DNA of 64,000 nucleotides from Leadbettera azotonutricia ZAS-9 (GTDB lineage Bacteria; Spirochaetota; Spirochaetia; Treponematales; Breznakiellaceae): contig NC_015577.1 of assembly GCF_000214355.1 (NCBI RefSeq), forward strand, positions 3,463,389 through 3,527,388, in the 5' to 3' direction. The notes beneath the pieces are model-generated. The model saw only the letters and a program-made list of their open reading frames with translations, searched no databases and was not told where the DNA came from. The stretch's first letter is position 1, and every line of letters starts with the position of its first letter. Shown in pieces: positions 18,201-34,667 of this stretch. A program made the position numbers and the translations under genes.

Positions 18201-18749
18201 TGGTGTATTGTTAACTGTTATGGCAAGACTAAAATTAGTAATATGAATGGTCTGGTTATTCAAACCATATTGCGGACTTGCCTCAAGATAAAATAGGGGA
18301 GTATCTTCAGAAGCATCAACAATAAACGTGTTGCTGCCCTGAACAGGGAACCACTGTTTTGTAGTAGTATAAAGCTCATTCAGGCTTCCTGCTATCACAG
18401 GGTAAGCCTTGTGTTTTTCATCCTCGGCCTGGGCCTGCCATACAATTTTTGTGTAGTACTTTATATACACTTCAAAAGAAACATCAACGGTAATTAGCTT
18501 TCCCTTATAAGCGCTCAAATCATAATAAACAGGAGCCCAGGTATACCCGCCTGACTGGGGGGGTGCTACTTTAAGCACATCATCCTTCCCCTCGTACGTT
18601 TCCATATAGGCTGCGGATACACCGTTGCTGCGCACCTTTAACCCATGCCACTCGCTAACCGCATCATCATCGGTATCAAAGATAGAAGGAAGGCTGCAGG
18701 AGGAAAAAAACACGCCAGCAAGCATGAGCAGCAAAGTAAGTTTTTTCAT
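15252..18749 (-). CDS. Multidomain GH10 xylanase lipoprotein with seven Ig-like repeats
   Basis: About 1165 residues. The ATG at 18749 is chosen because AGGAGG lies 6 nt upstream; an in-frame start 7 codons earlier has none. The lipobox SSC places the lipidated Cys at 18. A CBM-like module (about 30-185) with WAPVYYDLSAY and FYLEASPQYGLNN follows. Next come seven Big_2-like Ig domains (about 190-820), four of them nearly identical 87-residue units. The C-terminal GH10 domain (about 830-1165) has GHTLVWHRQ, acid/base WDVVNEAF and nucleophile ISELDIRT. The Ig array probably acts as a rigid spacer projecting the xylanase from the membrane. It shares the CBM-like module but not the N-terminal 200-residue module of its neighbours. 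Confidence 0.93.
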   Translation of the reverse strand: MKKLTLLLMLAGVFFSSCSLPSIFDTDDDAVSEWHGLKVRSNGVSAAYMETYEGKDDVLKVAPPQSGGYTWAPVYYDLSAYKGKLITVDVSFEVYIKYYTKIVWQAQAEDEKHKAYPVIAGSLNELYTTTKQWFPVQGSNTFIVDASEDTPLFYLEASPQYGLNNQTIHITNFSLAITVNNTPEPDPIPDSFVAVEEIADVVTIATAGTPLALTGIVSPENATNKVIIWSVKTAGKTMAAITGNTLSALEAGTVTITATVKNGTAVGVNYTKEFNIVVNTAFIAVTGISGVPSTATAGTPLNLTGTVEPPNATNKTIVWSISEAGTTGATISGNTLNTTAAGIVEVQAAIVTGLTASTNYTQSFSITINPVVPPFIAVTSISGVPTTATAGTPLNLTGTVSPPNATNKTIGWSVVSGLGSINDNNLSATGAGTVTVRASIDNGSAIGEAYTKDFQITASLPFVAVTGISGVPTTATVGTPLNLTGTVSPPNATNKTIAWSVVSGPGSIKGNNLSATGAGTVTVRASIDNGFAIGEAYTKDFQITASLPFVAVTSISGVPSTATVGTPLNLTGTVSPPNATNKTIAWSVVSGPGSIKGNNLSATGAGTVTVRASIDNGSAIGEAYTKDFQITASPPFVAVTSISGVPTTATVGTPLNLTGTVSPPNATNKTIAWSVVSGPGSIKGNNLSATGAGTVTVRASIDNGSAIGEAYTKDFQITASLPFVAVTGISGVPSTATAGTPLNLTGTVSPPNATNKTIVWSISDAGTTGTTIIDNTLSIARAGTVQVSATISNGDVNKDYTQSYSIIVNEPNTGGISYTSGLSWTEVPPLKDAYTNDFLIGNITGSNRLSGDEFNLLKKHYNVATPENDFKPENLYGWGGRTLNFDNADRIERALSAAGIKLHGHTLVWHRQTPQWMNDGVTAVVAKANLEAHVTQVVTHFKGKVISWDVVNEAFNDGLSNGNDWRAALRKDVPWYQALNEGYIELAFRAARAADPDAMLYYNDYSLDNFAKASAVANMVEEINNKYKGEGHTRNLIDGVGMQGHYQTTWFNVNSVKTSLELFISKGVKVSISELDIRTADYKEGTSADTTMSASAQISQGKMYAQLFQMLKAHAANIERVTMWGIDDKNSWLSAGNPCLFTRDLKVKQAFYGVLDPEGFLDYYK
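16584..17627 (-). repeat. Four tandem 261-bp coding repeats (87-residue Ig domains)
   Basis: The unit begins at the F[IV]AVT[SG]ISGVP residues and ends at the DFQITAS[LP]P residues. Four copies fill exactly 1044 bp and differ from one another at only a few residues. Three more diverged Ig domains flank them. Near-identity at DNA level points to recent expansion, and the copy number may vary by recombination or replication slippage. Confidence 0.9.
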
Positions 18750-18967: not shown

Positions 18968-21937
18968 TTATTCGACTGTACCCACCAAAGTAGTTATTGA
19001 GCTTCCAGGAAGCGAATAACCGCTTATGCTTGCCGATCCGGCGGCCGGGGGATTTACCGGTGATAAATCCTCAGAAGCAGAAGTCCGGTAAGCGTTTAAG
19101 GCCACAAATCTTGAATTTTGAAGGGTAACATTGATATTGGCTGCAGAATTTCCGCTATTGATCAAAACCAGGACAATTTCCTTGCCGTTGGGGTTTTTAT
19201 ATGCGGTCGTAAATACATTAGCAGCGGTGCTAGCAGTAGACCCGATGCGTTGATAACCCGGCCTGATAAATTTGCTGAAATGTCCGACAGCATAGTAACG
19301 CTTGGTCAGGGTGACCCCACTATTATTGAAAGAAATGATGTGATCTGACTCAGTATTATTATAGCTCCACAGCCACCAGTAAAGCCATGCGTTGGCTTCG
19401 GCAACAGTGAAGTCGTAATGTATCATCCGGGCATAAACCAAAGCATTGTTAATTCCAGTGCCGACCGGAATCTGGCCGCCTTTATTTGTCTGACCCATTT
19501 CAGTCTGCCAGATCCGCTTGCCAGCCGCAGAAGTCTGTGTAAGTTTTTCAGCTCCCAGATTGGTGGGGGTACTGTCTGCTTCGTATTGATGAACACCCAC
19601 ATAATTCAGCACTGATTTTGCCTGGGTATCGCCGAGGGTTTGGGTGATCAAATCTTCGGTAAAGTTCATATTTTCTGCGGCCATAACGCCCAGATTTTTT
19701 TGAACATCTTTCAGATAAAAACGTTGTCCCAAAGTTATGAGGAAATTCTTAATTTGATCACCTGTCCAGACGCAGCTTTCATAATCGGCAGCCCAATTTG
19801 ATTCATTCTGAATTGAAAGTACCGATAGCGGCCATCCCATTTCGCTTTCAAAATTCTTCACATAGTCCGCCAAAAGATCCGCATAATCGTTATAAAACGC
19901 CGGTTTAAGCGAACCTTTTCGATCGGGCGTGGAATTACTGCTGTACCCGCTTTTCCATTGGGTATCATTATTGTTGGGAGGGGTCCAGGGAGTGCTCATT
20001 ATGGTAAAATCACTGCCAGGACCATTCGGCAAATTTTTGATCAGATCAATAGTTGCCTTGGTAGCGGCCAAATCATAACTGCCCGCCCAGTTAAGGTCAA
20101 AGGTTTTTGTACCGTTCCAATCCAAATCATAACGATAAGTTCTATTACCCTTACCTTCCCCATTCACCTGGATAAAATTGTCATTGGGCTCATTGGGTCC
20201 GTTATCCTCAGGATACCGCTCCCGAAAGGGAATACGGTTCCGCAGTATGGTAAGCCCGATTCCGTTTGTCTTCGAATATAACTTCTCTATTACTTCGTTA
20301 TAATGTTCTTTATCCACATCATTCTTCCAGGCATTGGAACCGCCAAACCCGTCGATGATCTGCCTGCCGTCGTTGTAGTTAACAGTCATTGTACCGTTGT
20401 CGTTGGTATAAGTTGCCGCAGTACCCAGAACCTTGTCTGCAATATCACTCTTCCAAAGAGTTGTGGAAGTTCCGCCGCCGCTGCCCGATACAGTAACCTG
20501 GAGATCAGCTACATAAACGTTTGTACTGTTAAGACCATTACTGGAATCATTATCAAGATACAGAACACGGGAGTCCTCACTTATCGTTACGGTGTTGCTG
20601 CCGGAAACAGTCACCCAGTTATTTGCGGTTGTAGTACTGGAAGCAACTGTAGGATATCCGTCCTGGTTGATTTTAAAACCGACTTTTACCCCTGCAGAAG
20701 CCGCCCGAACACTCGCCTGAACAGTGATAGTGATAGACTGGTTGGAATAGGCGTTTAAATTATAGGTCAGCGCCGCCCATCCGGCAGGGCTTATTTCAAG
20801 AACATTTGACCTACCCTGGTATGATGCGTGATATATACCAGTGGAAGTTCCAGCAATATTAAATATCTTTCCGCCGGATTCAAATTGGGTAACAGTTGCT
20901 CCATCAGATACACCCTCGTTGTCTGCATGACCTGTACCGCCGCCATTCCCTGTTCCTTCGACATACACTCTTGCGCTTGCTGTCTTGCCATTGACAGTTT
21001 TTACCTTAATGGTAGTTGAACCTGCGTTTAAGGCGGTCACCGTTCCATTTTCGATAGAAGCTACATTCGGGTTGCTTGATGTCCAGGTAACATTTTTGTT
21101 GGATGCATTAAGCGGCTCAAATATCGCATTTAAAAGAGCGCCATCGCCCACATTCAGATTCAAAGTCAAAGGCGCTAGAGTTATCCCCGTAACCGGTATA
21201 TTGGCAGGGGTAACAAAATAATCATTGCTTATCACAACCGGATCAATCAAAGTTCCGAATTCGGTAATGCTGTTGCGGTAAATTTCTATTACTTCGCTGA
21301 TTCCCGCTTCCTTACCGTTCCTGATAAAGTTCACGGTAAGAATAGGATATCCCGAAGGCACTCCATCTATGGTCTTGCTCAGAGTTTTTGTGTTTCCCGA
21401 ACCGGTGATATCAGCATCTGTTAAACCTGATTTTAAATCAATGTTTCCCAGACGCAGTTCATCAAGCACAGCGTCAGAGGGGAAATTGATTGCCAATGAA
21501 AAAATACCGGTATATTCATTACTCACCGCGCCGTTAAGGGTAACTTCAACTACATTATTTGAAGCAGAACTAACGGTAAATTCACCGGAATTGCCTTCTG
21601 CTGCAAGATTATCAATACCGTTTACTGTCCGGAAAGTTTTTACATCCAGGGTATAGATTCCTTCCTCAAGTATGAAACTAAATAAAGCAGATGACAGGAC
21701 AGTTTCGTTACGAACTTCTATCCCGCCATTCTTAAAAATGAAATTGTATTTATCATATTTAATACTTGGAAGAACATTCCTGGCAGAACCTGTATCAAAA
21801 ACAATTTTTACCGTACCAATTCCGGGTTCTTCCGCCCGGGCTGCACCGGAAGGAGCAAGGAAAGCATTACACGCAGTAAACAGAAGTGTCCCTGTCAAAA
21901 TAAAGCTTGCTATGGCTGCTGTTAAACACTTTTTCAT
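18968..21937 (-). CDS. GH30 xylanase (glucuronoxylanase-like) lipoprotein
   Basis: 989 residues. The signal peptide ends in FTAC with lipidated Cys23. The shared N-terminal module of unknown family spans about 40-245 and includes the hallmark VIEIYRN. A Big_2 domain (about 250-335) and a CBM-like module (about 345-490, WAALTYNLNAY) follow. The C-terminal GH30 domain (about 505-989) has DGFGGSNAWK, acid/base region SIQNESNW, and nucleophile region WQTEMG, plus a beta-sandwich tail. These fit the GH30 subfamily that cleaves glucuronoxylan next to MeGlcA side groups. Subfamily assignment is inference. AAGGAAAG precedes the ATG. Confidence 0.88.
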   Translation of the reverse strand: MKKCLTAAIASFILTGTLLFTACNAFLAPSGAARAEEPGIGTVKIVFDTGSARNVLPSIKYDKYNFIFKNGGIEVRNETVLSSALFSFILEEGIYTLDVKTFRTVNGIDNLAAEGNSGEFTVSSASNNVVEVTLNGAVSNEYTGIFSLAINFPSDAVLDELRLGNIDLKSGLTDADITGSGNTKTLSKTIDGVPSGYPILTVNFIRNGKEAGISEVIEIYRNSITEFGTLIDPVVISNDYFVTPANIPVTGITLAPLTLNLNVGDGALLNAIFEPLNASNKNVTWTSSNPNVASIENGTVTALNAGSTTIKVKTVNGKTASARVYVEGTGNGGGTGHADNEGVSDGATVTQFESGGKIFNIAGTSTGIYHASYQGRSNVLEISPAGWAALTYNLNAYSNQSITITVQASVRAASAGVKVGFKINQDGYPTVASSTTTANNWVTVSGSNTVTISEDSRVLYLDNDSSNGLNSTNVYVADLQVTVSGSGGGTSTTLWKSDIADKVLGTAATYTNDNGTMTVNYNDGRQIIDGFGGSNAWKNDVDKEHYNEVIEKLYSKTNGIGLTILRNRIPFRERYPEDNGPNEPNDNFIQVNGEGKGNRTYRYDLDWNGTKTFDLNWAGSYDLAATKATIDLIKNLPNGPGSDFTIMSTPWTPPNNNDTQWKSGYSSNSTPDRKGSLKPAFYNDYADLLADYVKNFESEMGWPLSVLSIQNESNWAADYESCVWTGDQIKNFLITLGQRFYLKDVQKNLGVMAAENMNFTEDLITQTLGDTQAKSVLNYVGVHQYEADSTPTNLGAEKLTQTSAAGKRIWQTEMGQTNKGGQIPVGTGINNALVYARMIHYDFTVAEANAWLYWWLWSYNNTESDHIISFNNSGVTLTKRYYAVGHFSKFIRPGYQRIGSTASTAANVFTTAYKNPNGKEIVLVLINSGNSAANINVTLQNSRFVALNAYRTSASEDLSPVNPPAAGSASISGYSLPGSSITTLVGTVE

Positions 21938-22017
21938 TTTTTCACTTTCCTTATCCTCAATATTTTCAACACTGATTATACAGCAACCTTTCAGATCGCC
22001 AGATATTACAAAACTAT

Positions 22018-22053
22018 CCGGACGCCGGCGGGTTAATACTCTCCGCCGTCCGG
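22018..22053 (-). terminator. Terminator-like hairpin after the large GH10 gene
   Basis: GC-rich arms (CCGGACG...CGGCGG against CCGCCGTCCGG) with one small bulge and an 11-nt loop lie 20 bp after the stop at 22074. ATAGTTTTG follows on the minus strand as a weak T-run. It separates the three-gene unit (32451-22074) from the GH30 gene. Confidence 0.6.
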
Positions 22054-22073
22054 ATTGTCAATTCAAAAATTCT

Positions 22074-25000
22074 TTACTGGTTGTTACTCAGCCATGCAGC
22101 GGGATTCGAAATCCTTTCAGGGTCAATTATAGCGTAATAAGCCGGTTTAACCCTGGGTGTTTGGGCAGTCCCGTCGAAGGGCAGCGGGTATGATTCCTTG
22201 CGCCAGCTTGCGCTGTCCTGAAGACCCCAAAAAGTGATTCGCTTAATAACGCTCTTATACTGGTTAAACGCCTGAAAAGCCTCTGCATAGATTTGGGCTT
22301 GCCTAAGATACCTGGCAGGAGACTTGGCTTCATTCTGTAACCTCTCCAGTTCGGCAGTACCCGTCAAATCCGTAGTAGTATTCTCATAAACATGAACCTG
22401 ATTACCGTCACTATACGTTACCCTTAAAGCAGTCCAATCCCTGTATCCGGTAGTGGTAGCATCCAACTCGGTTATAACGATTTCAATACCCCTATCAGCA
22501 AATTTTTTCAAATTGTTTTTGAAGGTAGTACCATTGAAATTTTCGGTATTAAAATGCGCCTGCATACCAATACCGTCAATAAGCTTTGTGCTGCCGGTGG
22601 TATTATCGGGATCGGTAAGCCAGCGTTCATTTATCTTGGTTATCATATCCACATAGGTATCGCACCTGCCACCTTCAGTGTCGAGGTTATAATCGTTGGC
22701 ATACAGCTTAAGGTTAGGTTCTCCATTGGCAATAGCAGCCCTGCGGGCAGCTTTAAATGCAAGATAAATGTAATCCGGTCCTACCGCAGTATACCAAGGG
22801 CTGTTATCATCGGTCCCAAAAGTGGCTTCACCGTTATGGTATTTATCCAAATCTTCCTGTGAACTATATCTGATATTGCCCCGCAGATGACTTGTATAGG
22901 GAGTTCCGCCGCCGGAAATTGCTTCGTTTATTACATCCCACGCAACAACCTTTCCTTTAAAGCTGGTTACAACATCAGTAATATACTTCTCCATTCTCCT
23001 GGTGTTATCCGCCCTGTTTGCATCCTGTTCAGCCTCGCTAAACACAACCTGGTCCCGCATCCATTTGGCAATCTGTGTTTTATTATGCCACAAAAGAGTA
23101 TGACCATATACTTTTCTGCTGGTACTTGCAGCATTGCTTGCTGTGCTTGACACACTTGCGCTTCCGGTTGCCGCTGACCCGTTCCAACTGTACTGCCCGG
23201 GTTTCATGTCATTTTCCGGAGTAAAAGCATTGAAATTTCCGGTAATGACACTGCTAATACTATTCACGCCTCCGGTGAAAACATTTCCTATTTCCACACC
23301 GGTACCCAGATATCTCTGTATAGAAGTATAAAATGCTTCCTTGGTACTAAGATTTACAGTGCTGAAAATGGTAGTATGTACTTCAAGAGGTTCGGAAGTT
23401 ATAACTTTTCCATTTACCGTTGCGCTTGCTGTAATGTTAGCCGTCCCGAGACCTGTAGCAGAATCACTATAGCCTGTTGCCAGCACATTACCTTTAGCAG
23501 AAACTCGCGCCACATTGTTATTGGTACTTGACCAACTGATTGTGGAAGGAACTGCGGCACCTGGAGGAACAGTAGTTAAGGCAATTCTTGCATTATCACC
23601 GACTGTCAGAGTGGGAATAGCCTGAAGGCTGAAACTTTCAAGTGCAGGAGCTGTAACATTTACATTACGGTTTGCAGAAACATTAACATCGGAATCATTG
23701 CTTTTTGCTGTAATAACAGCAGTACCGCCCCGCAGCGCAGTAATGGTAACCGTGTTACCGGTTCCGGTAATGGAAGCAACTGCAGGATCACTGGAAGTCC
23801 AGATAAGACCTTTTTTGCTCGCATTGGAAGGAGCCACTGTTGCAGTAAGGGTTGCGGTATTATTCGGGGCTTCGGTACTCAGTTCCAGTATTTCCGGCGT
23901 ACTCGGTGAAAGTGTTACCGAAGTCACGTCAACCTTGGGGCCTATAGGGATAGGCGTACCGTTGATACTGAGGGCAAAGTCGGCAAAGTAAACAGTAGCG
24001 CCGTTTAATCCGCCGCTTCCCGATTCAAGATATAGCTGCGGCGCTTCAGCATCGCGCACCGTGATTGTAGAAGTATTGGACACAGCAATCCACCGGTTGG
24101 CGGGACTGCGCTGTTGGCCATAGGACCCATCAATCGTTGGGTATGCATCATTCGCAGCCTGCGCCTGCCAGAATACCTTTGTGTTATTGACAGGCACCAA
24201 AACCTTATATGAGATATTGATTGATACACTCTGTCCACGGTATTCGCTTAAATCATAGGACAAGGGTCCCCATGCATACGTAAGGTTCGCAGGTTTTTCA
24301 ACCCTGAGTACATCAGCATAGGTAGCAAGCAATGCCCCGGTTCCGGTTGCAGGCGATGTAGCTGTATAGCTTGACAATTTAGTTGCAGTAACGCCCTGAG
24401 TTTCTGTGTTATCGGCAATGGCCAATCCATGCCACTTATTGGGCGCTTCAGTAACGGGATTAACCGTTTCTGCCGGAATAACGGTAACAGCTGCCGAGGC
24501 AGAAAATGATCCGTCAACTGTCGTTACGGTAATTGTTGCCGTACCGGTTTTTATTCCGGTAACCTGCCCTGCAGTGTTCACCGTTGCAACCTCGGGATCG
24601 TTTGATACCCAGATTACGTTCTTGTTGGTCGCACTGTCAGGAGATACCGTAGCTATGAGAGTACTATCGATGGTCCCGGCGTTTACCGTCAGAGCCGTTT
24701 TGTTAAGTGTTACTCCGGTTGCCCCTACTCTGGCAGATGTTATCGTATAAGTGAGATTGGAGAGATACAGGATTCTCTTTCCAAGGCCCTTGTCATCCGT
24801 ACTATCGTTTCTTTCCAGATACAGCCAGGGAGCATCCGCTTTGGGTGTTACGATTACAGCAGTTGTATTTCTTACTGTAGTCCAGCCATTAGCCGCAGTA
24901 GGAGCCGCAGTACCAATAGCAATATTGGTGGTCCCGCTATCGGCAATGGTGGTGTATTTATCACCAACCTCGGTAACCTTCCAGTGTACCCGATGAGTAC

Positions 25001-26252
25001 CTGTTGATCCGCCGTGAACATCTACCGAGATGGTTACTCTAATTTCCTCTTCGGCATATTGGGACAGATCCAGCTTTACCGGCCCCCATGGATAATTATC
25101 GCCGTTGGCAGGAGGTGTAATTTTAAGAACGTTATTTTTAAGCCCTGGACCGGTTCCATAACTGCTCAGGAAAACCGCATCGCCAGGCTCTTTTACGTCG
25201 ATCTGAAATCCTTCATAACTGGTAACTGGTACGCCATTTGTTCCGGTATTGGCAGGATATACAGCAGTTACTTCAACAGAATCAAAGATATTTCCGGAAC
25301 GTGCAGTAATAGTTGCCGTTCCATCATCCTTTGCATAAAGCACCCCGTTAGTCACCGTTACTATATTGGGATTAGAAGACAGCCAGGTAATAGTATCCTC
25401 AGCAAAGGAGGGAGTTTTTGCTGCTATAAGTTCTACACCAGTAACACCTACCGTCAGGTTCAGCGCGGCAGGGACAATCGCCCCGCCTTCTTTATACTTG
25501 AGCGTAATACCGGTTAACGGATAGGAAGGAGGGGTTACAAAATAATCCTCTTCAAATTCAACAGGTTCCTCGCCGGGTGTTCCGAAATAAGTCACACTGT
25601 TCCGGTAAATTTCGATTACTTCGGCAAGGCCGGTTTCTTTTCCTGCAAGGAGAAGATTTACAGTCAGAATATGATACCCGGTGGGTACATGCACAGCTCC
25701 GCTGACACTTGTAGATGTGAGGGAGTGCTCCCCAGTGGATAATAAATCGAAACTTCCCAACTGCAGCTCATCAATTCCTGCTCCTTCGGGAAAGTGAATC
25801 TCATAAAAGAAATCACCGAAGGAATCGGAGCTGATATGACCGGTCAAAATGATTTCCACAGGTCCGTCAGTCCCGCCGGGACCGACTCTAAATGACCCGG
25901 CGCTGGTTCCGGTTGCTGCCAGACTGGCTTCTCCCACATCGCCATTATAGGTCTTTACCTCAAGGGTATATTCTCCTTCAGGCAAGGTAAAAAGGAACGG
26001 CTCGGAAGAAGCTTTTGTTTCGCTTAACGTTGTTACGCCATTAACTTTAAAGTTAAACTCGTAAAAATCAAAGCTAATACTGGGGACAATGTTTTTTGCC
26101 CCCCCTGCCTGAAACACAACTTCTACGACACCAGTCCCTGGCGCGGCGGCTGTTCCAATCTGCGGCTGTTCAAAAAGATTATCACAAGCCGTAAATAAAA
26201 GAACTCCGGCAAGAAAGAAACTGGTTAAAATTGCACTTATATGCTTTTTCAT
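22074..26252 (-). CDS. Multidomain GH10 xylanase lipoprotein with two CBM-like modules
   Basis: About 1392 residues. The ATG at 26252 gives a signal peptide with FTAC and Cys23; an in-frame start 15 codons earlier would put charged residues before it. Order: shared N-terminal module (about 38-230), Big_2 (235-320), CBM-like (325-500), Big_2 (500-590), CBM-like (590-770), two Ig-like domains (770-955), then GH10 (955-1392). Catalytic motifs are GHTLLWHNK, acid/base WDVINEAI and nucleophile ITELDATT. The GH10 domain carries insertions compared with a minimal one (about 435 against 330 residues). The coding region of the next gene upstream ends 17 bp beyond this start, so the two are in one operon. 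Confidence 0.92.
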   Translation of the reverse strand: MKKHISAILTSFFLAGVLLFTACDNLFEQPQIGTAAAPGTGVVEVVFQAGGAKNIVPSISFDFYEFNFKVNGVTTLSETKASSEPFLFTLPEGEYTLEVKTYNGDVGEASLAATGTSAGSFRVGPGGTDGPVEIILTGHISSDSFGDFFYEIHFPEGAGIDELQLGSFDLLSTGEHSLTSTSVSGAVHVPTGYHILTVNLLLAGKETGLAEVIEIYRNSVTYFGTPGEEPVEFEEDYFVTPPSYPLTGITLKYKEGGAIVPAALNLTVGVTGVELIAAKTPSFAEDTITWLSSNPNIVTVTNGVLYAKDDGTATITARSGNIFDSVEVTAVYPANTGTNGVPVTSYEGFQIDVKEPGDAVFLSSYGTGPGLKNNVLKITPPANGDNYPWGPVKLDLSQYAEEEIRVTISVDVHGGSTGTHRVHWKVTEVGDKYTTIADSGTTNIAIGTAAPTAANGWTTVRNTTAVIVTPKADAPWLYLERNDSTDDKGLGKRILYLSNLTYTITSARVGATGVTLNKTALTVNAGTIDSTLIATVSPDSATNKNVIWVSNDPEVATVNTAGQVTGIKTGTATITVTTVDGSFSASAAVTVIPAETVNPVTEAPNKWHGLAIADNTETQGVTATKLSSYTATSPATGTGALLATYADVLRVEKPANLTYAWGPLSYDLSEYRGQSVSINISYKVLVPVNNTKVFWQAQAANDAYPTIDGSYGQQRSPANRWIAVSNTSTITVRDAEAPQLYLESGSGGLNGATVYFADFALSINGTPIPIGPKVDVTSVTLSPSTPEILELSTEAPNNTATLTATVAPSNASKKGLIWTSSDPAVASITGTGNTVTITALRGGTAVITAKSNDSDVNVSANRNVNVTAPALESFSLQAIPTLTVGDNARIALTTVPPGAAVPSTISWSSTNNNVARVSAKGNVLATGYSDSATGLGTANITASATVNGKVITSEPLEVHTTIFSTVNLSTKEAFYTSIQRYLGTGVEIGNVFTGGVNSISSVITGNFNAFTPENDMKPGQYSWNGSAATGSASVSSTASNAASTSRKVYGHTLLWHNKTQIAKWMRDQVVFSEAEQDANRADNTRRMEKYITDVVTSFKGKVVAWDVINEAISGGGTPYTSHLRGNIRYSSQEDLDKYHNGEATFGTDDNSPWYTAVGPDYIYLAFKAARRAAIANGEPNLKLYANDYNLDTEGGRCDTYVDMITKINERWLTDPDNTTGSTKLIDGIGMQAHFNTENFNGTTFKNNLKKFADRGIEIVITELDATTTGYRDWTALRVTYSDGNQVHVYENTTTDLTGTAELERLQNEAKSPARYLRQAQIYAEAFQAFNQYKSVIKRITFWGLQDSASWRKESYPLPFDGTAQTPRVKPAYYAIIDPERISNPAAWLSNNQ

Positions 26253-26268
26253 ATTTTTCCTGCCCCTC

Positions 26269-29200
26269 TTACTCAATCGTAATGGATACTGTAGCATTAC
26301 CGATATAACTAGGTTTCGTTACAAACAGAGCGATACGGTATGTTCCCTTGTCTCTTCCTGCACTATTAAAAGTAAAGGAAGCATTAGTCGCTCCGGGTAT
26401 ATCCCTGGAGCCTTCTGTCCACTGGTATGTTTCATACCCGGTATTGGGGCCATTTAGCGTAACGCTTTCTCCGGACTGAATGGCTATCGCATTCGGAACA
26501 TCAAGAACCAGCTGACTCCCTGAACCGGCCCAGTTAAAGCTAATACTTTGGGAACCTTCAGGATAGCTCACCGTCACAGTTACCGGATTGGATACTTTAT
26601 CGCCGGCCCTTGCTGTGATATAGGCTGTGCCGCCCTTTATCCCGGTTACTTTTCCGGTACTGTCTACATTGGCGACAGTGTTATCGCTTGATATCCAACT
26701 TACCGTCCCTTCGGTTGCTTCTGAAGGATTCACAGCGGCCTGCAGTGTTTGATAACCACCCACCAGGATACTTATCGAACCCGCGCCCTGAATGGCAACA
26801 CTCTCAACAGGTATTTTTACGGTAACAATGACCGTTCTGGAGAATCCGCCCTGCGCTGTACTGGCAGTAATGGTTGCACTTCCTGCAGCCTCGGCTTTAA
26901 TCACTCCGTTTGCAACAGAAACGATACCGGAATTACTGGATGACCAGTTAATAGTTTGGTTATTCGCATCAGAGGGCACAACCGCTGCGCTCAGAGTCGT
27001 TTCCTGTCCTCTGTTCAGGGTCAGCGAACTTTCCCCGCTGGGGGTTATACCGGTTACCGGCGCCTGCACAGTCACCGTGACAGCGGCAAACTTGGCTGCA
27101 TCAACAGCAGAAGTTGCTCTGATTTCCGTGGTTCCCTTGGCAAGCGCAGTTACCACGCCATTGGATACAGTTGCAACAGATGGGTTACTGGAAGTCCAGT
27201 TAACTGCCTGATTTGCTCCCGCCGGCAGTACCGCTGCCGTTAACTGTTGAGTGGTGTTCCTGTTGATAGTCAGAGGATCTTGTACACTAAGAGTAACGGT
27301 TTCTACACTCACAGGAGTCCCTACAATCACCGTAACCTCGTCCGTAAACGCGACGCCGGTTTTGGTTTTGTCAGAACTTGCAGTGATAGTGGCAGTACCA
27401 TTACCTACCGCAGTTACCACGCCATTTGCTACCGTAGCAATAAGCTCATTGCTGGAAGTCCAGGTTATGGTATTCCTGGTGGCGCCGGCGGGGTTTAAAG
27501 CTGCCGCAAGTGTTATTTCATCTCCCGGAAGGAGGTTTCTGGTCTTATCCCCGGCAATTGAAATACCGCTAAGTTCAGTATAGCTTCCTTCGGATATAAC
27601 ACTTACCTGGAAATCTGCCAAATAAACCGGCACTCCATTAAGTCCGTAATCCGCACTCTGCGAAAGGTATATGACAGGATTATTTTGCTCCAACAAGTTT
27701 GTTGCCCTGCCGCTTGTAGTTGTTGATAACCTTACCCACTGTTTGGTCGTAGTTAATTGGTTATATCCGTAACTGTCTGTCCCGCTGACAATAATGGGAT
27801 AGTCAGTACCATTCGACTGCCACCAAACCCTTGTAGCGGTATCAATCCATGCATACACAGACATAGTAACAGTTATGTTTTGTCCGCGGTATTCTTTCAG
27901 ACTGTATTGCAGAGGTCCCCAGGCAGGATCGTTCGGCGTGGGAGAAGTCAGTTTAAGGACATCATACCTCCCGTTCCAACTGTCAAAATGAACAGCCTTT
28001 ACATCTTCAACATCAATTATTTTGACATCGTTCCAGTAACGGCCATTACCGACCAGCGCAACACCATTGGCGTCACCATCAGGGGTAGCAGGAGTTATGG
28101 TAACAGACATATTGGAGAGGTAAAGAACTCTATTGCCCAATCCGTTATCGCTTGAACTGTCGCTTTTCTCCAAATAGAGCCAGGGTGAATCTGCCTTGGG
28201 AGTCACGGTAACAGCAGTGGTATTCCGCACTGTTGTCCAGCCAGTAGCAGCTGCAGGAGCAGTTGCCGAGGCAGCTGCAGTTGTATTAACAATAGTGGTG
28301 TATTTATCACCGGTCTCAGTAACCTTCCAATGCACTTTGGCATTGCTTGCTTCGGCATGAGCATCCACCGAAATAGTTATTTTAATTGACTGCCCTGCAT
28401 ATTGCGACAAATCAAGCTTCACCGGCCCCCAGAGATAACCAGAATTATCAGTGGGCGGTGACAATTTAAGAACATTGTTTTTGAGTCCGGCGCCAGTACC
28501 ATAACTGTTAAAGAAAAGCGCTTGTTCTGGGGCTGTTACATCAATCGTAAACCCTTCCCAACTGGTAACCGGGATACCGGCAGTTCCGGTAACAGGCGCC
28601 TGCACTGTTATAACAACAGATTTGGCAATAGTCCCTTCTTTCGCCGTTGCGGTTATGGTTGCTTTCCCGCTGGTTTTTTGTGCCGTCAGAACACCATTAT
28701 TCACAGTCACGATATCGGGCCTGTTGGTTGCCCAGCTTATGGCATTGTCCGCTTCCGAATCAGAATTATTTACAGGAATAACTTCTGCAGTCAGTGTTAC
28801 CGGCGTACCATAGGTTAAATCCAACGCTTCGCCAATAATATCATTGCCATTCTTCAAAGTGATACCGGTTATCGGGAGATCCAATGGACTCACCGTTACA
28901 TTGATGGTTTTAGTAACAGCCCCTGCTGTTGCGGTAACGGTTGTGGAACCGGATTTTGCTTGCGCTGTCAGAATTCCACCAGCCACGGTTACGATACTTG
29001 TATCGTTAGACACCCAGTCAACGGCGCTATTTGCATAAGAAGGTGCAACAACTGCCGCAAGGGTTTTCGTGTCGCCGTAATTTAGTACCAGCGCTTCTGT
29101 ACCAATAGCATCGCCACCGGCTGTCAGGAGGATGTCTGTTACCGCTACAGTCCCAGTAAAATGAGCGTCTGTGAATACCTTGTCATTAAATTTGGAAGTG

Positions 29201-29841
29201 TTGTTTTTGTAAATCTCCACCACATCACTGAAGCTCGCTTCTTTTCCATTTTTGGCAAGCTTGAGAGAGAGGATATAATACCCGGCGTCCACCTCATTGG
29301 AACCACTGAGAGTGGCTGTCTCTCCCGCAATAACGGGGGTTCCGCCGCCCAGTTCCAGTGAACCAAGGTTAAAATATATAAGCTCCGCCGCCTGGGGATA
29401 TTGGATGCTATAAGAGAAAGTTCCTTTCCCTTCGCTTACCACACCCGAAAGGAGGACTTTCACCGTATTGCTGGAGCTTTCGGCTACCGCAAAGTCTGCA
29501 TACCCGGTAGCAGCAAGGTGCCCCCTGTCGCCCCGGTAAGTGTTAACATCCAGGCGCCATGATCCGGTTTCCAGCTCAAAGTCCAGAGATTCTCCAGAAG
29601 CTTTTTCTACCACCGGGAGGCTTACGCCGTCTTTGGTAAAGGTAAAATCATAAAAGTCAAATAGCGCCTCGGGGACTATCTGCCTGGCTTCGCCCTGACC
29701 AAAGGCAATTTTAACTGAACCCTTTCCGGGCTCAATTTTATTTTCCTGTTCAGACGGCGAGAAGATATTATTGCAGCTGGCAAGCAGCAAAATCCCGGTT
29801 AAAAACAGGCTGAACAATGCAGCAATGTTAAATTTTCTCAT
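26269..29841 (-). CDS. Large Big_2/CBM-like surface lipoprotein without catalytic domain
   Basis: 1190 residues. The lipobox LASC has Cys23. The shared N-terminal module spans about 35-230 (FDFYDFTF, VVEIYKN). It is followed by two Big_2 domains, a CBM-like module (about 430-585), a second CBM-like module (about 595-750) and at least four further Big_2 domains, each with a WxSSNxxxATVxNGxVTA-like core. The end is an Ig/PKD-like module (about 1095-1190) containing YQWTEGSRDIPGAT and SFTF. No glycosidase signature is present. It likely binds xylan or the cell surface and works with the xylanase encoded directly downstream. GGGGAG precedes the ATG. Confidence 0.8.
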   Translation of the reverse strand: MRKFNIAALFSLFLTGILLLASCNNIFSPSEQENKIEPGKGSVKIAFGQGEARQIVPEALFDFYDFTFTKDGVSLPVVEKASGESLDFELETGSWRLDVNTYRGDRGHLAATGYADFAVAESSSNTVKVLLSGVVSEGKGTFSYSIQYPQAAELIYFNLGSLELGGGTPVIAGETATLSGSNEVDAGYYILSLKLAKNGKEASFSDVVEIYKNNTSKFNDKVFTDAHFTGTVAVTDILLTAGGDAIGTEALVLNYGDTKTLAAVVAPSYANSAVDWVSNDTSIVTVAGGILTAQAKSGSTTVTATAGAVTKTINVTVSPLDLPITGITLKNGNDIIGEALDLTYGTPVTLTAEVIPVNNSDSEADNAISWATNRPDIVTVNNGVLTAQKTSGKATITATAKEGTIAKSVVITVQAPVTGTAGIPVTSWEGFTIDVTAPEQALFFNSYGTGAGLKNNVLKLSPPTDNSGYLWGPVKLDLSQYAGQSIKITISVDAHAEASNAKVHWKVTETGDKYTTIVNTTAAASATAPAAATGWTTVRNTTAVTVTPKADSPWLYLEKSDSSSDNGLGNRVLYLSNMSVTITPATPDGDANGVALVGNGRYWNDVKIIDVEDVKAVHFDSWNGRYDVLKLTSPTPNDPAWGPLQYSLKEYRGQNITVTMSVYAWIDTATRVWWQSNGTDYPIIVSGTDSYGYNQLTTTKQWVRLSTTTSGRATNLLEQNNPVIYLSQSADYGLNGVPVYLADFQVSVISEGSYTELSGISIAGDKTRNLLPGDEITLAAALNPAGATRNTITWTSSNELIATVANGVVTAVGNGTATITASSDKTKTGVAFTDEVTVIVGTPVSVETVTLSVQDPLTINRNTTQQLTAAVLPAGANQAVNWTSSNPSVATVSNGVVTALAKGTTEIRATSAVDAAKFAAVTVTVQAPVTGITPSGESSLTLNRGQETTLSAAVVPSDANNQTINWSSSNSGIVSVANGVIKAEAAGSATITASTAQGGFSRTVIVTVKIPVESVAIQGAGSISILVGGYQTLQAAVNPSEATEGTVSWISSDNTVANVDSTGKVTGIKGGTAYITARAGDKVSNPVTVTVSYPEGSQSISFNWAGSGSQLVLDVPNAIAIQSGESVTLNGPNTGYETYQWTEGSRDIPGATNASFTFNSAGRDKGTYRIALFVTKPSYIGNATVSITIE

Positions 29842-29859
29842 TTTGATTCTGCTCCCCTT

Positions 29860-32451
29860 TTACTCTACTATGATTTCAACATTATGTTGATACAGTGTGC
29901 CGCCAACTGACCTAAAGCCCCTCAGTCCGATAGAGTAGTTACCCTTTGCAGCCGGAGTAAAGGTATAGCCAGCTCCGGTTGCACCATCGATCACATTATC
30001 ACCATTAAGCCACTGATAAGGACCGGTAATTCCGGTTCCGGCGCTTAGTGTTACACTCTGTCCGAGGGTGATTGTTACAGGACCGGCAGGATCAGTAACA
30101 GGGGCGCCATTCGCCCAACTAAAGCTGATTCCGCCAGTACCGATGGAGGCTGCCACCGTGATGGTAAAAGGCGCACTGGTATATGCCATTCCGATCTCCG
30201 TACCGTCAGCAATGCTTGCGGTAACTATAACCGTTCCGGCAGCAGTTCCTGTGGCAGTAAGTGTACTTTCACTGGTTGTTGCGGGACCGCTTACAACCGC
30301 CCATGTAACTGCCTTGCCTGCTTTTACCGCATCAGCGCCAGGAGTAAAATCGCCGCTTAAGACGAGTGAATGACCGGCAGTTACGCTGGTTCCGCCGGTA
30401 TAGCTAAACCCGGTTACCGGTACATAAGCCGCTACTACCGTTACGGTTGCTTGCGCAGTTTTACTGCCATCCATGCTTGTTACTGTTATGACAGTGCTTC
30501 CAGCGCCTACCGCAGTAACCAGACCGTCGGTTACAGTTGCTACAGTAGGATCACCGGACGACCAGCTTACGCTCTTATTATCCGCAGTCGTGGGTAATAC
30601 TTCTGCGGTTAAGGCTTCCGTATCTCCAACTGTCAATTCCAGAGATGCCTCATTCAGACTTACACTTTCAACTGTTATTGGAGGGCGGCTTACTATTACG
30701 CCGTTAATCCTGAGCTCGAAATCAGCAAGGTATACGGTTTTCTTGTTCAAACCATTACTATCGGACTCATCAATATACAGATAACCGTGGTATGGCTGCT
30801 CATCAGTATAACCCGGAATAAATGTAAGACTCCCGGAACTCGTTTGCCATGAGCCGGTAGCAGTCGATGGACCGGTAATTACAGGATACGATGGGCCCTT
30901 CTGTATCGCCTGCAACCTTATCTTTGCGCCATTATTGGCGCTTTCTATATAGTACGAGAACGATACATTTACGGTGATTTCCTGACTGGCATTGGCAAAT
31001 TCAGTCAAATCGTAGCGCAGCGGCGCCCAATCATATATGCCCTGAGCATTGGGAGATACCTTAATAACGTCATCTTTGCCATGGAAACTGCCAACTTCAA
31101 CACTTGACGCATTCGGCCAGATGTAAAGACCATGCCATGTATCAATATCTGTTATTGGATTTACTGTTATTTTAAAGTCTTTAACAAATGGCGTCCCGAC
31201 TGCAATGCCATCAACAACTGTAGCACGAAGAATATATGTTCCCGCGTTAGAGGCGCGCCATGAGGGATTTTCTTGCACCACGCCTTGTTCAATTACTTCG
31301 TCAATTCCATTTATGTTAACTGCTGTCCAAACAATCACCGTTCCCGCTGTTGCATTGGAAGGTACAACCTGAGCAGTTTTCGTGGGAATGCCAACTTCGG
31401 CAGAAATGGTTATTTCACCATTACCGTCTGCATCGGCGGGTAAAGTAATATCTGTTACCGGCACATAAGAGTTTATTACCGTTACGTTTATAGTTTTGGT
31501 AATATCACCGGCTGTTGCAGTAACCGTAGTACTTCCAGCGGCTTTTGCCGTCAGGATTCCATCCACCGCGGTTACGATATCTTCCTTGCTGGATGACCAG
31601 GTAACGGTCTTGTTGGTGGCAAAGGAGGGCGTTACAGACGCATCAATGGTTATAGAATCGCCGAGATTCAATTCCACGGGCCCTGTACCAATAGGAACAC
31701 CATCGATAGTCAAGGCGATATCAGTTACCGCTACATATTCGGGTTCCACCCAAACAATATTACCCTCTGTAAAGTCTTTTTCAAATATTGTTTTATTATT
31801 CTCATAGATTTCTACTAGGTCACCAAAACCTGTGGTTTTACCTTCATGGTTTTGAAGCCGGACTACCATTCTGTAAATACCTGCATTCAAAGATATTTCT
31901 CCAGCCACCCCTGAAACAATCTCTTCCGTAATATATGTTTCTCCAAGGCTGAATCCGATTATATGGGTACCTTCGGGGTAATCAATTTTATAGTAAAAAC
32001 TACCTGTACCGGTAGTCTTATTCCCATTCAGCGTTATAACAATTTTGGGATTGTCGGATACCTTCAATTCAAAAGGAACTTCGCCTGAATTACCTGTAGC
32101 AGCTATTTTGTTTTCATTAGCTGGACCTTTATAGGCCGTCACGGCAACTTTATAAAAACCCGGTGAAAGCCAAAAACTAAAAGGTTTGTCATTTTTACTT
32201 TTAGGATAAGTCGATGCCCCAATAACCGTTATTCCATCGTCTTCATATTCAGTGAAGACGAACTTGTAGCTATCGAAATTTGTATCAGGTACAATACTGC
32301 GGTCTTCTGTCCCGAAGAGAATGTCAACACGCCCTTTCCCAGCAGAGCCGTCTGTAGGGAAAGACGGCGCAAAGGGGCTAGTACAAGCAGCCATTAACAG
32401 CACTACTGCCAAAATCATACTTGCCAAAACAAACGCTAAAGTCTTTTTCAT
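29860..32451 (-). CDS. Big_2/CBM-like surface lipoprotein without catalytic domain
   Basis: 863 residues. The lipobox MAAC gives Cys23. The shared N-terminal module (about 38-240; FDSYKFVF, LVEIYENN) precedes two Ig-like domains, one CBM-like module (about 430-590; WAPLRYDLTEF and GLNKKTVYLADF), two more Big_2 domains and the Ig/PKD-like end module (about 775-863; PYQWLNGDNVIDGAT). It is the first gene of a probable three-gene operon with the 1190-residue binder and the large GH10 xylanase; the gap to the next gene is only 18 bp. AAGGAAGG lies upstream of the ATG. Role: probably substrate binding. Confidence 0.8.
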   Translation of the reverse strand: MKKTLAFVLASMILAVVLLMAACTSPFAPSFPTDGSAGKGRVDILFGTEDRSIVPDTNFDSYKFVFTEYEDDGITVIGASTYPKSKNDKPFSFWLSPGFYKVAVTAYKGPANENKIAATGNSGEVPFELKVSDNPKIVITLNGNKTTGTGSFYYKIDYPEGTHIIGFSLGETYITEEIVSGVAGEISLNAGIYRMVVRLQNHEGKTTGFGDLVEIYENNKTIFEKDFTEGNIVWVEPEYVAVTDIALTIDGVPIGTGPVELNLGDSITIDASVTPSFATNKTVTWSSSKEDIVTAVDGILTAKAAGSTTVTATAGDITKTINVTVINSYVPVTDITLPADADGNGEITISAEVGIPTKTAQVVPSNATAGTVIVWTAVNINGIDEVIEQGVVQENPSWRASNAGTYILRATVVDGIAVGTPFVKDFKITVNPITDIDTWHGLYIWPNASSVEVGSFHGKDDVIKVSPNAQGIYDWAPLRYDLTEFANASQEITVNVSFSYYIESANNGAKIRLQAIQKGPSYPVITGPSTATGSWQTSSGSLTFIPGYTDEQPYHGYLYIDESDSNGLNKKTVYLADFELRINGVIVSRPPITVESVSLNEASLELTVGDTEALTAEVLPTTADNKSVSWSSGDPTVATVTDGLVTAVGAGSTVITVTSMDGSKTAQATVTVVAAYVPVTGFSYTGGTSVTAGHSLVLSGDFTPGADAVKAGKAVTWAVVSGPATTSESTLTATGTAAGTVIVTASIADGTEIGMAYTSAPFTITVAASIGTGGISFSWANGAPVTDPAGPVTITLGQSVTLSAGTGITGPYQWLNGDNVIDGATGAGYTFTPAAKGNYSIGLRGFRSVGGTLYQHNVEIIVE

Positions 32452-32561
32452 TTATTTCCTTCCTTATTCAAAAGTCTTTATTTACTACATAAAAACATCA
32501 ACTACCCAATTTCATACACTAGTCAATTCCTGACTAATTTTATCAATAATTGACAATAAAC

Positions 32562-32595
32562 CCGGAGGCGAAGAGTATTTTACCCCCGCCTCCGG
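32562..32595 (-). terminator. Terminator-like hairpin between lipoprotein genes
   Basis: Perfect 9-bp arms CCGGAGGCG and CGCCTCCGG with a 16-nt loop lie 20 bp after the stop at 32616. GTTTATTG follows on the minus strand. It probably ends the upstream two-gene unit and marks a new promoter region (32452-32560) for the 863-residue lipoprotein. Confidence 0.6.
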
Positions 32596-32615
32596 TTAAA
32601 AATTAATCTAGTACT

Positions 32616-34667
32616 TTAAAGCTCTACACCCAATTTAGTAAATGTTATTACTGTCGATAATGGATGCTCCGTAGCACCATCCAAATACAGGGTGATGAAG
32701 GTTCCTTCACCAAACGTAAAGGTAAACACTTGAGCGGTTGATTTACTATTCCATCCATCCACCACCCATTCGTAAGCATGACCGGTTTCAGCAGTAAGAG
32801 TAACGCTCTTTCCGTCTCCGCTATATTCCTTGTTAATAATAACTTTAGGATTGTCCCACTGGAGATCAAATTCAGGGCCTGTACCGCTTGTAGATTTACT
32901 CACCGTAAGGGTGTACTCAGCGGTAGTATCATCCTCAGCCGTCACCTTGATAGTGATGGTGTATGTGCCGCTGGCGGTAATCTCAAAATTTCCGTCGGGC
33001 TGATAGTCGCCCGTTCCGAGCTTGTACCAAACCGCTGCTTTGCCACTAGCCGGAGTAGCCAAAACATTTGCCGTAGCATTGGTTCCAATATCAGCGGTGT
33101 ATGCGCTCCCATCCTTGACAGCATTAACCCCGTTTACCGTAATGCCGGTAATACCTTTTTCGCCGCTGGTGATATACGTATTAACAGTCACATCAATGCT
33201 GTTAGAAGAAATACCGCTGCCGTCTTTCGCTGTCGCGGTTATCTTTGCTGTACCGTTGGAAATATTGGCTGTCCCAGTTACTTTACCGTTGGCATCAACA
33301 TCCGCTATGGCTGAATTACTGGTAGTCCAGGTTACATCCTTCACTTTGGCGCCGAGAGGTTCGACCAACGCTTCAAGCTCCACAGTGGGGCTGGCAGCTG
33401 TCAGAACTATGGGAGCTACGCCGCCCTTTGCGCTTACGGTTATTTTGGTTACTTTAATGTCTACAGTGACTGGGATAGTACCGGTTACTCCGCTACCGTC
33501 TTTCGCAGTCGCGGTTATCGTTGCTGTACCGTTGGCAACTGCGGTCACAATACCAGTTATAGGATTAACAGTCGCTATAGCGGGATCACTTGAAGACCAA
33601 TCTACATCCTTTACTTTAGCTTTATCTGGTGTAACAGTCTCTTTAAGGGTTACAGTGTTACCAGCAGCTGACAAAGGTCCGCCTTCTGCAACTATGGTTA
33701 TGCCGGTCACTTTGAAATCCACAGTGATATCTATTTCATTGGAAGAAATACCATCGGCAGTTGCTATAATTTTGGCTGTACCATTGGTTTTTGGAGTTAC
33801 AATACCGCTTGTTTCACCAACAATCGCTACATCCGGATCAAGAGAAACCCACTTTACGGTATTACTTGTAGCATTTTTCGGAAACACAGTAGCTTTGAGG
33901 GCTACAGTCGCAGCAGATGTGGACAGCGTTTTACTACCAAGGGCTTCTGCAAATATGCTGGTAACCGGCACTGCTTTGAAGTGATCGGCTGCAAAGACGA
34001 GGGGGGTACTTCTATTATTGGAAACAACTGATAAAGTAGTGGTATTATTAGCATAAATCGCCACTACATCAGCAAAACCTGCAACCTTTCCTTCGGCATC
34101 GGTTAAGCGGATAACGAAGAACTGATAACCAGCAGGACTAGTGATAGTACCAGAAGTTTCTGTCAGATCGATGTTCCCTAGTTTAAATTCATTAATGGTT
34201 GCTCCGGTGGGAATACCGCCAATAGAATAAACAAAAGTTCCGTTCCCTGACGAAATAGTTCCAGCCAGCTTAACAACAATTGTTCCCGAACTTGCTCCTG
34301 CGGTAATGGTGAAAACTGCCGAAGTCCCTTCGCCGGCCGGAAGGTTATTATTATAAGTTTCTACTTTAACCTTATAATTGCCAACCGGCAGGGTAAAATT
34401 AAGATTAGAGAGATTATCTCTCGTAAATATTTGCTCCGCACCAGCCCATCCTTGGGGGATAAAGGTAAACTCATATTTTTCAAAGTTTAGTCCCGGCAAA
34501 ACGGTACGGGCGCTGCCCGCTTCCAATGCCACACTGACAGTTCCCGTGCCTACTGCGGCAGACACGTCCTCAGATCCTGCATAAGGGCTGCTGCATCCCA
34601 TGATCAGCATGAGCGCCGCCATTGCAAGACTGATAGTAATCGCAAACACCTTCTTTTTCATCTTCAT
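32616..34667 (-). CDS. Big_2/cadherin-like surface lipoprotein without catalytic domain
   Basis: About 683 residues. The ATG at 34667 follows GGGAGAAGAGAAG; a further in-frame ATG two codons later would place the lipobox Cys (IMGC) at 23 as in the neighbours. The shared N-terminal module (about 38-245; FEKYEFTF, DVVAIYANN) is followed by three or four Big_2 domains (about 250-500), a cadherin-like beta-sandwich (about 505-590; GITVNGVNAV) and the common end module (about 600-683; YEWVVDG, FTFTFGEGTF). It has no CBM-like module and no catalytic motif. The open frame extends back into the previous gene's end, but that part lacks a ribosome site. Confidence 0.78.
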   Translation of the reverse strand: MKMKKKVFAITISLAMAALMLIMGCSSPYAGSEDVSAAVGTGTVSVALEAGSARTVLPGLNFEKYEFTFIPQGWAGAEQIFTRDNLSNLNFTLPVGNYKVKVETYNNNLPAGEGTSAVFTITAGASSGTIVVKLAGTISSGNGTFVYSIGGIPTGATINEFKLGNIDLTETSGTITSPAGYQFFVIRLTDAEGKVAGFADVVAIYANNTTTLSVVSNNRSTPLVFAADHFKAVPVTSIFAEALGSKTLSTSAATVALKATVFPKNATSNTVKWVSLDPDVAIVGETSGIVTPKTNGTAKIIATADGISSNEIDITVDFKVTGITIVAEGGPLSAAGNTVTLKETVTPDKAKVKDVDWSSSDPAIATVNPITGIVTAVANGTATITATAKDGSGVTGTIPVTVDIKVTKITVSAKGGVAPIVLTAASPTVELEALVEPLGAKVKDVTWTTSNSAIADVDANGKVTGTANISNGTAKITATAKDGSGISSNSIDVTVNTYITSGEKGITGITVNGVNAVKDGSAYTADIGTNATANVLATPASGKAAVWYKLGTGDYQPDGNFEITASGTYTITIKVTAEDDTTAEYTLTVSKSTSGTGPEFDLQWDNPKVIINKEYSGDGKSVTLTAETGHAYEWVVDGWNSKSTAQVFTFTFGEGTFITLYLDGATEHPLSTVITFTKLGVEL

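Follow-up and report, generated by a model that had tools for sequence, protein, structure and literature searches.

Five neighbouring lipoproteins encoded in the genome of Leadbettera azotonutricia ZAS-9 resemble one another over some 200 residues at their N termini, and the locus therefore raises the question of what this region, here called the module, is and what it does for the proteins that carry it. Sequence is a poor guide to the surface lipoproteins of spirochaetes, and a profile of the module picks out 10-25 multi-domain lipoproteins per genome in five genomes of the termite-gut family, with at least one match in a quarter of our sample of the phylum. The module also gives a way into the question of how xylanases and xylan-binding proteins may be kept at the surface of termite-gut treponemes, and it raises the idea, open to testing, that spirochaete lipoproteins are linked to the fimbrillin fold of Bacteroidia. 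The genome is a single contig of 3,855,671 bases, and the window, the whole stretch of 64,000 nucleotides that was analysed, corresponds to positions 3463389-3527388.

Five neighbouring lipoproteins share an N-terminal module

The module occupies residues ~36-240 in lipoproteins of 989, 1392, 1190, 863, and 683 residues, with the start of each open reading frame taken at the ATG adjoining the lipobox (1392 residues from position 26252; 683 residues from position 34667). The five copies in the window are:

21218..21832, minus strand: module copy 1, N-terminus of the 989-residue GH30 lipoprotein (gene 18968-21937)
25545..26147, minus strand: module copy 2, N-terminus of the 1392-residue GH10 lipoprotein (gene 22074-26252)
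29134..29736, minus strand: module copy 3, N-terminus of the 1190-residue non-catalytic lipoprotein (gene 26269-29841)
31744..32349, minus strand: module copy 4, N-terminus of the 863-residue non-catalytic lipoprotein (gene 29860-32451)
33993..34562, minus strand: module copy 5, N-terminus of the 683-residue Big_2/Ig-type lipoprotein (gene 32616-34667)

All-against-all BLASTP of the N-termini gave E values of 1e-20 to 1e-66 with 29-45% identity over 216-278 residues, and removal of the signal peptides left 33-48% identity to copy 1 over ~190-205 residues, a similarity far above chance. The ~200-residue pattern that a first-pass annotation had read in these five proteins is seen in the alignment as well, and every pair matches at an E value of 1e-20 or better, where that annotation had allowed for there being no significant similarity between copies. 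Its description of the surroundings was also accurate: Pfam places Big_2 after the module in all five proteins, and the module profile matches neither of the two other GH10 proteins of the locus nor its acidic lipoprotein. A tree of 87 modules groups the five copies of the window in a single clade (support 100/98) and otherwise scatters the copies of each genome, which points to local duplication producing sister modules with different cargo.

The module has no entry in the searched family libraries

Searches of Pfam-A and NCBIfam returned no model above its cut-off within the module, either for the five window proteins or for 41 diverse copies, bearing out the earlier remark that no named domain with this order was known; the module is thus new to these libraries. 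Matches to Big_2 (PF02368) begin only after the module, and no named Ig family, and at the sequence level no fimbrillin family, exceeded its cut-off on module copies. Sequence-profile searches against the PDB gave chance-level matches only, and a literature search found no paper describing the module. The nearest family by sequence is DUF4493 (PF14900), which scored best among Pfam families on module copies but always below cut-off (best matches 13-19 bits, top 19.2, against a gathering cut-off of 27 bits) and over ~50 positions that cover only the first of the two predicted domains described below (domain 1). Six such sub-threshold matches occurred, in three of the six genomes searched, and all six fell on module copies. 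Mfa_like_1 (PF13149) had no match in six genomes; a Bacteroides control did match.

The module occurs across Spirochaetota and has multiplied in the termite-gut family

A profile built from the five window copies detects 18 copies in the ZAS-9 genome. A wider profile, A3, gives 19 matches in ZAS-9, 25 in a relative, G212 (4,059,867 bases), and 16, 16, and 10 in three further members of the window's family, counts that include a few matches covering domain 1 only. Across a sample of Spirochaetota, 102 of 393 genomes contain a match (E value of 1e-5 or better), as do 52 of 168 genera and 13 of 17 sampled members of the window's own family. About three quarters of the sampled genomes have no detectable copy, and lipoprotein export therefore does not generally depend on the module. 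Far from being confined to this locus, the module is spread through the phylum and has expanded in the termite-gut family. The earlier suggestion of a module for this locus is contradicted by the 19 matches genome-wide, and the restriction to termite-gut treponeme lipoproteins that it entertained by the presence of the module in almost a third of the sampled genera. The spread over Spirochaetota rules out both a locus-specific and a termite-only module.

A back-translation scan of named genomes used alignment A5, the mixed alignments A3 and A4 being too diverse, and returned 18 loci, whose titles mostly name Treponema MAGs or assemblies from other spirochaetes, with a single one from Bacteroidia. 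The contig that carries this module copy (L105:5896-7041) has the title Bacteroidia bacterium MS499-65, and the genes next to the copy, read by eye, resemble Bacteroidota genes; lateral transfer or mis-binning could explain its position.

A single module lies between the lipobox and variable cargo

We fetched 89 distinct module proteins and surveyed their architecture. Each contains one module (89/89), and in 86 a lipobox directly precedes it (82 by rule and 4 by eye); the remaining three, with no visible lipobox, are either fragments or proteins whose start is in doubt. The distance from the lipobox cysteine to the module is mostly 10-25 residues. With fragments set aside, the module of a complete protein is followed by 150 or more further residues, the one exception being a 285-residue protein of G212 that consists of the module alone. 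In the ZAS-9 genome this cargo comprises GH30, GH10, Big_2, CotH kinase, LTD, fn3, beta-helix, InlB-type repeat, and BspA-type LRR domains, and other genomes add FGE-sulfatase, GLUG, and further LRR (LRR_5) domains. Outside the window, Big_2 is usually not what comes after the module. These cargo domain types are of the extracellular kind, and module lipoproteins are presumably exposed at the cell surface. The proposal of a surface-attachment module thus fits in its general form, with one module per protein behind a lipid anchor and ahead of extracellular-type cargo, but not as a device of this locus.

Two smaller regularities were seen in the same proteins. A CotH kinase module lipoprotein adjoins an LTD module lipoprotein twice in the ZAS-9 genome (L057:4257-10952 and L051:4968-11397). 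A motif C-[SDN]-N-P-[LF]-x-P recurs at +1 to +6 after the lipobox cysteine (82 copies scored) and is possibly a sorting signal.

The predicted structure resembles fimbrillin-type lipoproteins

An AlphaFold2 model of copy 3 from the 1190-residue protein (29134-29730), calculated with a 27-sequence alignment, has a mean pLDDT of 92.2 and a pTM of 0.78, and consists of two all-beta domains, both beta-sandwiches, at about residues 3-96 and 102-185. The top Foldseek matches in the PDB are led by Bacteroides cell-adhesion and fimbrial proteins (3up6, E value 5e-5; 5cag; 3ufi; 4gpv), with Mfa2 (5nfi) ranking lower. In VIA-align, 12 Bacteroidales fimbrial or adhesion-type entries (4qdg, 3up6, 3r4r, 3gf8, 4gpv, 4h40, 5cag, 3pay, 4jg5, 4dgu, 4eps, and 3ufi) span both domains, aligning 132-185 of 199 residues with Z scores of 5.6-8.8, where a Z below 8 may reflect merely a common arrangement and values of 6-9 lie near that level. 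The rmsd over the two domains, 6.5-10 Å, indicates that domain angles and loops differ from those of the fimbrial structures. The first-ranked VIA-align entry is the LRR protein BT_0210 of B. thetaiotaomicron (4ecn), in which residues 36-292 match the whole module with a Z of 9.4. Its arrangement is like that of module copies with LRR_5 cargo, but the rmsd of 16.4 Å over 175 residues shows that the domain angles differ, and the likeness is a structural one.

Kinship of fold with fimbrillin-type proteins is likely on the basis of this model, and common ancestry with fimbrillins, beyond mere similarity of fold, is possible. Like the Bacteroidales fimbrillin-type or type V pilin-like lipoproteins (FimA, Mfa1-Mfa5), module proteins carry a lipoprotein signal, a basic residue follows their first strand, and two tandem beta-sandwiches are predicted near their N-terminus (compare 3up6, 4qdg, 3r4r, 3gf8, 4gpv, and 5nfi). 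In contrast to those proteins, the module is shorter, at ~200 residues, and is followed by long, unrelated C-terminal cargo; the searches also found no Mfa_like_1 match, no shaft-like class, and no clostripain-type protease in the genomes covered. The first-pass annotation had named an ordinary transthyretin- or Big-like domain of known role as the outcome that would count against it. In the model, each half of the module is indeed a beta-sandwich broadly of this sort, but taken together the two domains come nearest to fimbrillin-type lipoproteins of Bacteroidales.

A probable lipid-anchored base for variable cargo

The reading that we favour, at a probability of roughly 60%, is that the module acts as a base of fimbrillin fold, anchored by lipid and built of two beta-sandwich domains, that presents variable cargo, and that in this locus it serves a cell-bound xylan array. 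The computed properties described above (homology, position behind the lipobox, single copy, variety of cargo, the window clade, and predicted fold) are its starting point. Processing by signal peptidase II would leave a lipidated cysteine tied to the module by a short linker, typically of 10-25 residues. The two tandem sandwiches, of the kind found in Bacteroidales fimbrillin and adhesion lipoproteins, would then form a membrane-proximal stalk, and the C-terminus of the module would lead into cargo held outside the cell. One ancestral module gene would have been duplicated locally to yield copies with different cargo, in the window GH30 or GH10 with CBM22-like domains, non-catalytic CBM22-like/Big_2 sequence, or Big_2/Ig domains only.

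The module could instead be a pure spacer: two prealbumin- or Ig-like sandwiches whose sole task is to raise the cargo above the membrane, which would resemble fimbrillins by convergence and for which Big_2 repeats could stand in. In favour of this, both halves are beta-sandwiches of a generic type, single-domain VIA-align matches include DUF3823, DUF4876, and a domain from a rhamnogalacturonan lyase, and partial profile matches suggest that domain 1 occurs alone in some proteins. However, the module is a fixed pair of domains, always first and always single, with near-invariant Gly, Pro, Arg, and Tyr positions, whereas the number and order of interchangeable spacers, Big_2 among them, are variable. 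We consider a pure spacer rather unlikely, at perhaps one chance in five.

A conserved basic residue and the type V pilus question

A rival reading gives a more specific role to the first strand, which has alternating hydrophobic residues and is followed by a conserved basic residue. In copy 3 this residue is encoded at:

29683..29685, minus strand: Arg53 codon (module position 16, copy 3), in the loop after strand 1

Position 16 is Arg or Lys in 83 of 87 aligned copies (Arg in 77, Lys in 6, with Lys in window copy 2), within a motif [RK]T[LIV]xP, and ranks sixth in conservation among 181 positions. The strand-1 loop of copy 3 is the lowest-pLDDT block of the first domain in the AlphaFold2 model. 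Type V pilins are made as precursor lipoproteins, and a cut by Arg-gingipains near the N-terminus lays open a groove in which strands are exchanged (PMC5954841; PMC7616799). Arg-gingipains process the lipoproteins Mfa1 and FimA of P. gingivalis in this way, and it has been proposed that the groove is covered by the strands that precede the cut (PMC5954841). Type V pili have been described as occurring in Bacteroidia only (PMC11316588).

By analogy with Mfa1 and FimA (PMC5954841), a surface protease might cut module proteins after the Arg or Lys, so that strand 1 comes out of the domain 1 groove and its place is filled by a donor strand from another subunit, making the proteins tips or subunits of a filament. 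The fimbrillin-type proteins among the nearest two-domain structures, and a basic residue so often retained in a flexible loop behind an alternating-hydrophobic strand, speak for such an assembly. Several results speak against it. The protease search covered Peptidase_C11 and Peptidase_C25: Peptidase_C11 (clostripain-type) had no match in four genomes while its controls matched, and Peptidase_C25 had none in the ZAS-9 genome but also none in any control genome, which makes that search uninformative. Nearly all copies carry large C-terminal cargo, so that no shaft-like class was found, with a single complete module-only protein among the copies. The neighbouring T17 and P20 are strongly conserved too, and a cut site alone would not require this. 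E169, the only strongly conserved acidic position of the module, could pair structurally with R16, although a search for compensatory change in an Arg16-Glu169 salt bridge found none. On balance we regard type V-like assembly as improbable, and its extension, in which strand exchange after the cut would link cargo lipoproteins, xylanases included, into extracellular filaments or arrays, as a slightly longer shot still. If true, it would give spirochaetes a pilus class described so far only in Bacteroidia.

Module cargo includes predicted CBM22-like domains

A second domain, of ~150 residues, occurs seven times there, six times in module proteins and once in the 1172-residue GH10 protein:

20474..20899, minus strand: CBM22/CBM4-like domain, cargo of the 989-residue protein
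24726..25229, minus strand: CBM22/CBM4-like domain 1, cargo of the 1392-residue protein
23949..24440, minus strand: CBM22/CBM4-like domain 2, cargo of the 1392-residue protein
28081..28572, minus strand: CBM22/CBM4-like domain 1, cargo of the 1190-residue protein
27583..28044, minus strand: CBM22/CBM4-like domain 2, cargo of the 1190-residue protein
30691..31143, minus strand: CBM22/CBM4-like domain, cargo of the 863-residue protein
18204-18656, minus strand: CBM22/CBM4-like domain (predicted fold), 1172-residue GH10 protein

The model of this domain has a pLDDT of 85, and the structures closest to it are CBM22 xylan-binding modules (Foldseek E value 3e-6; VIA-align Z 10.8, rmsd 3.5). Its predicted fold is like that of CBM22 from Xyn10C and Xyn10B (PDB 4xuo, 4xup, and 1dyo), but it has no Pfam match. 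From the modelled fold, xylan is the probable ligand. The combination of a CBM22-like fold with GH10 and GH30 catalytic domains suggests that the locus encodes a cell-bound array that binds and degrades xylan, in which the 1190- and 863-residue proteins would be non-catalytic binding members.

That the module itself binds plant polysaccharide or assembles a xylanase complex is very unlikely: it does sit on the xylanases and CBM22-like proteins of the locus, but the same module also accompanies CotH, LRR, FGE-sulfatase, and beta-helix cargo and occurs in other spirochaete families, and two GH10 proteins of the same locus lack it.

At their other ends, the 1190-, 863-, and 683-residue proteins and a 707-residue protein have in common, by eye, an Ig/PKD-like tail of ~90 residues (gene ends at 26269, 29860, 32616, and 34735), with the pattern Y.W...G...F.F...G.Y.I.L and a hydrophobic strand at its end.
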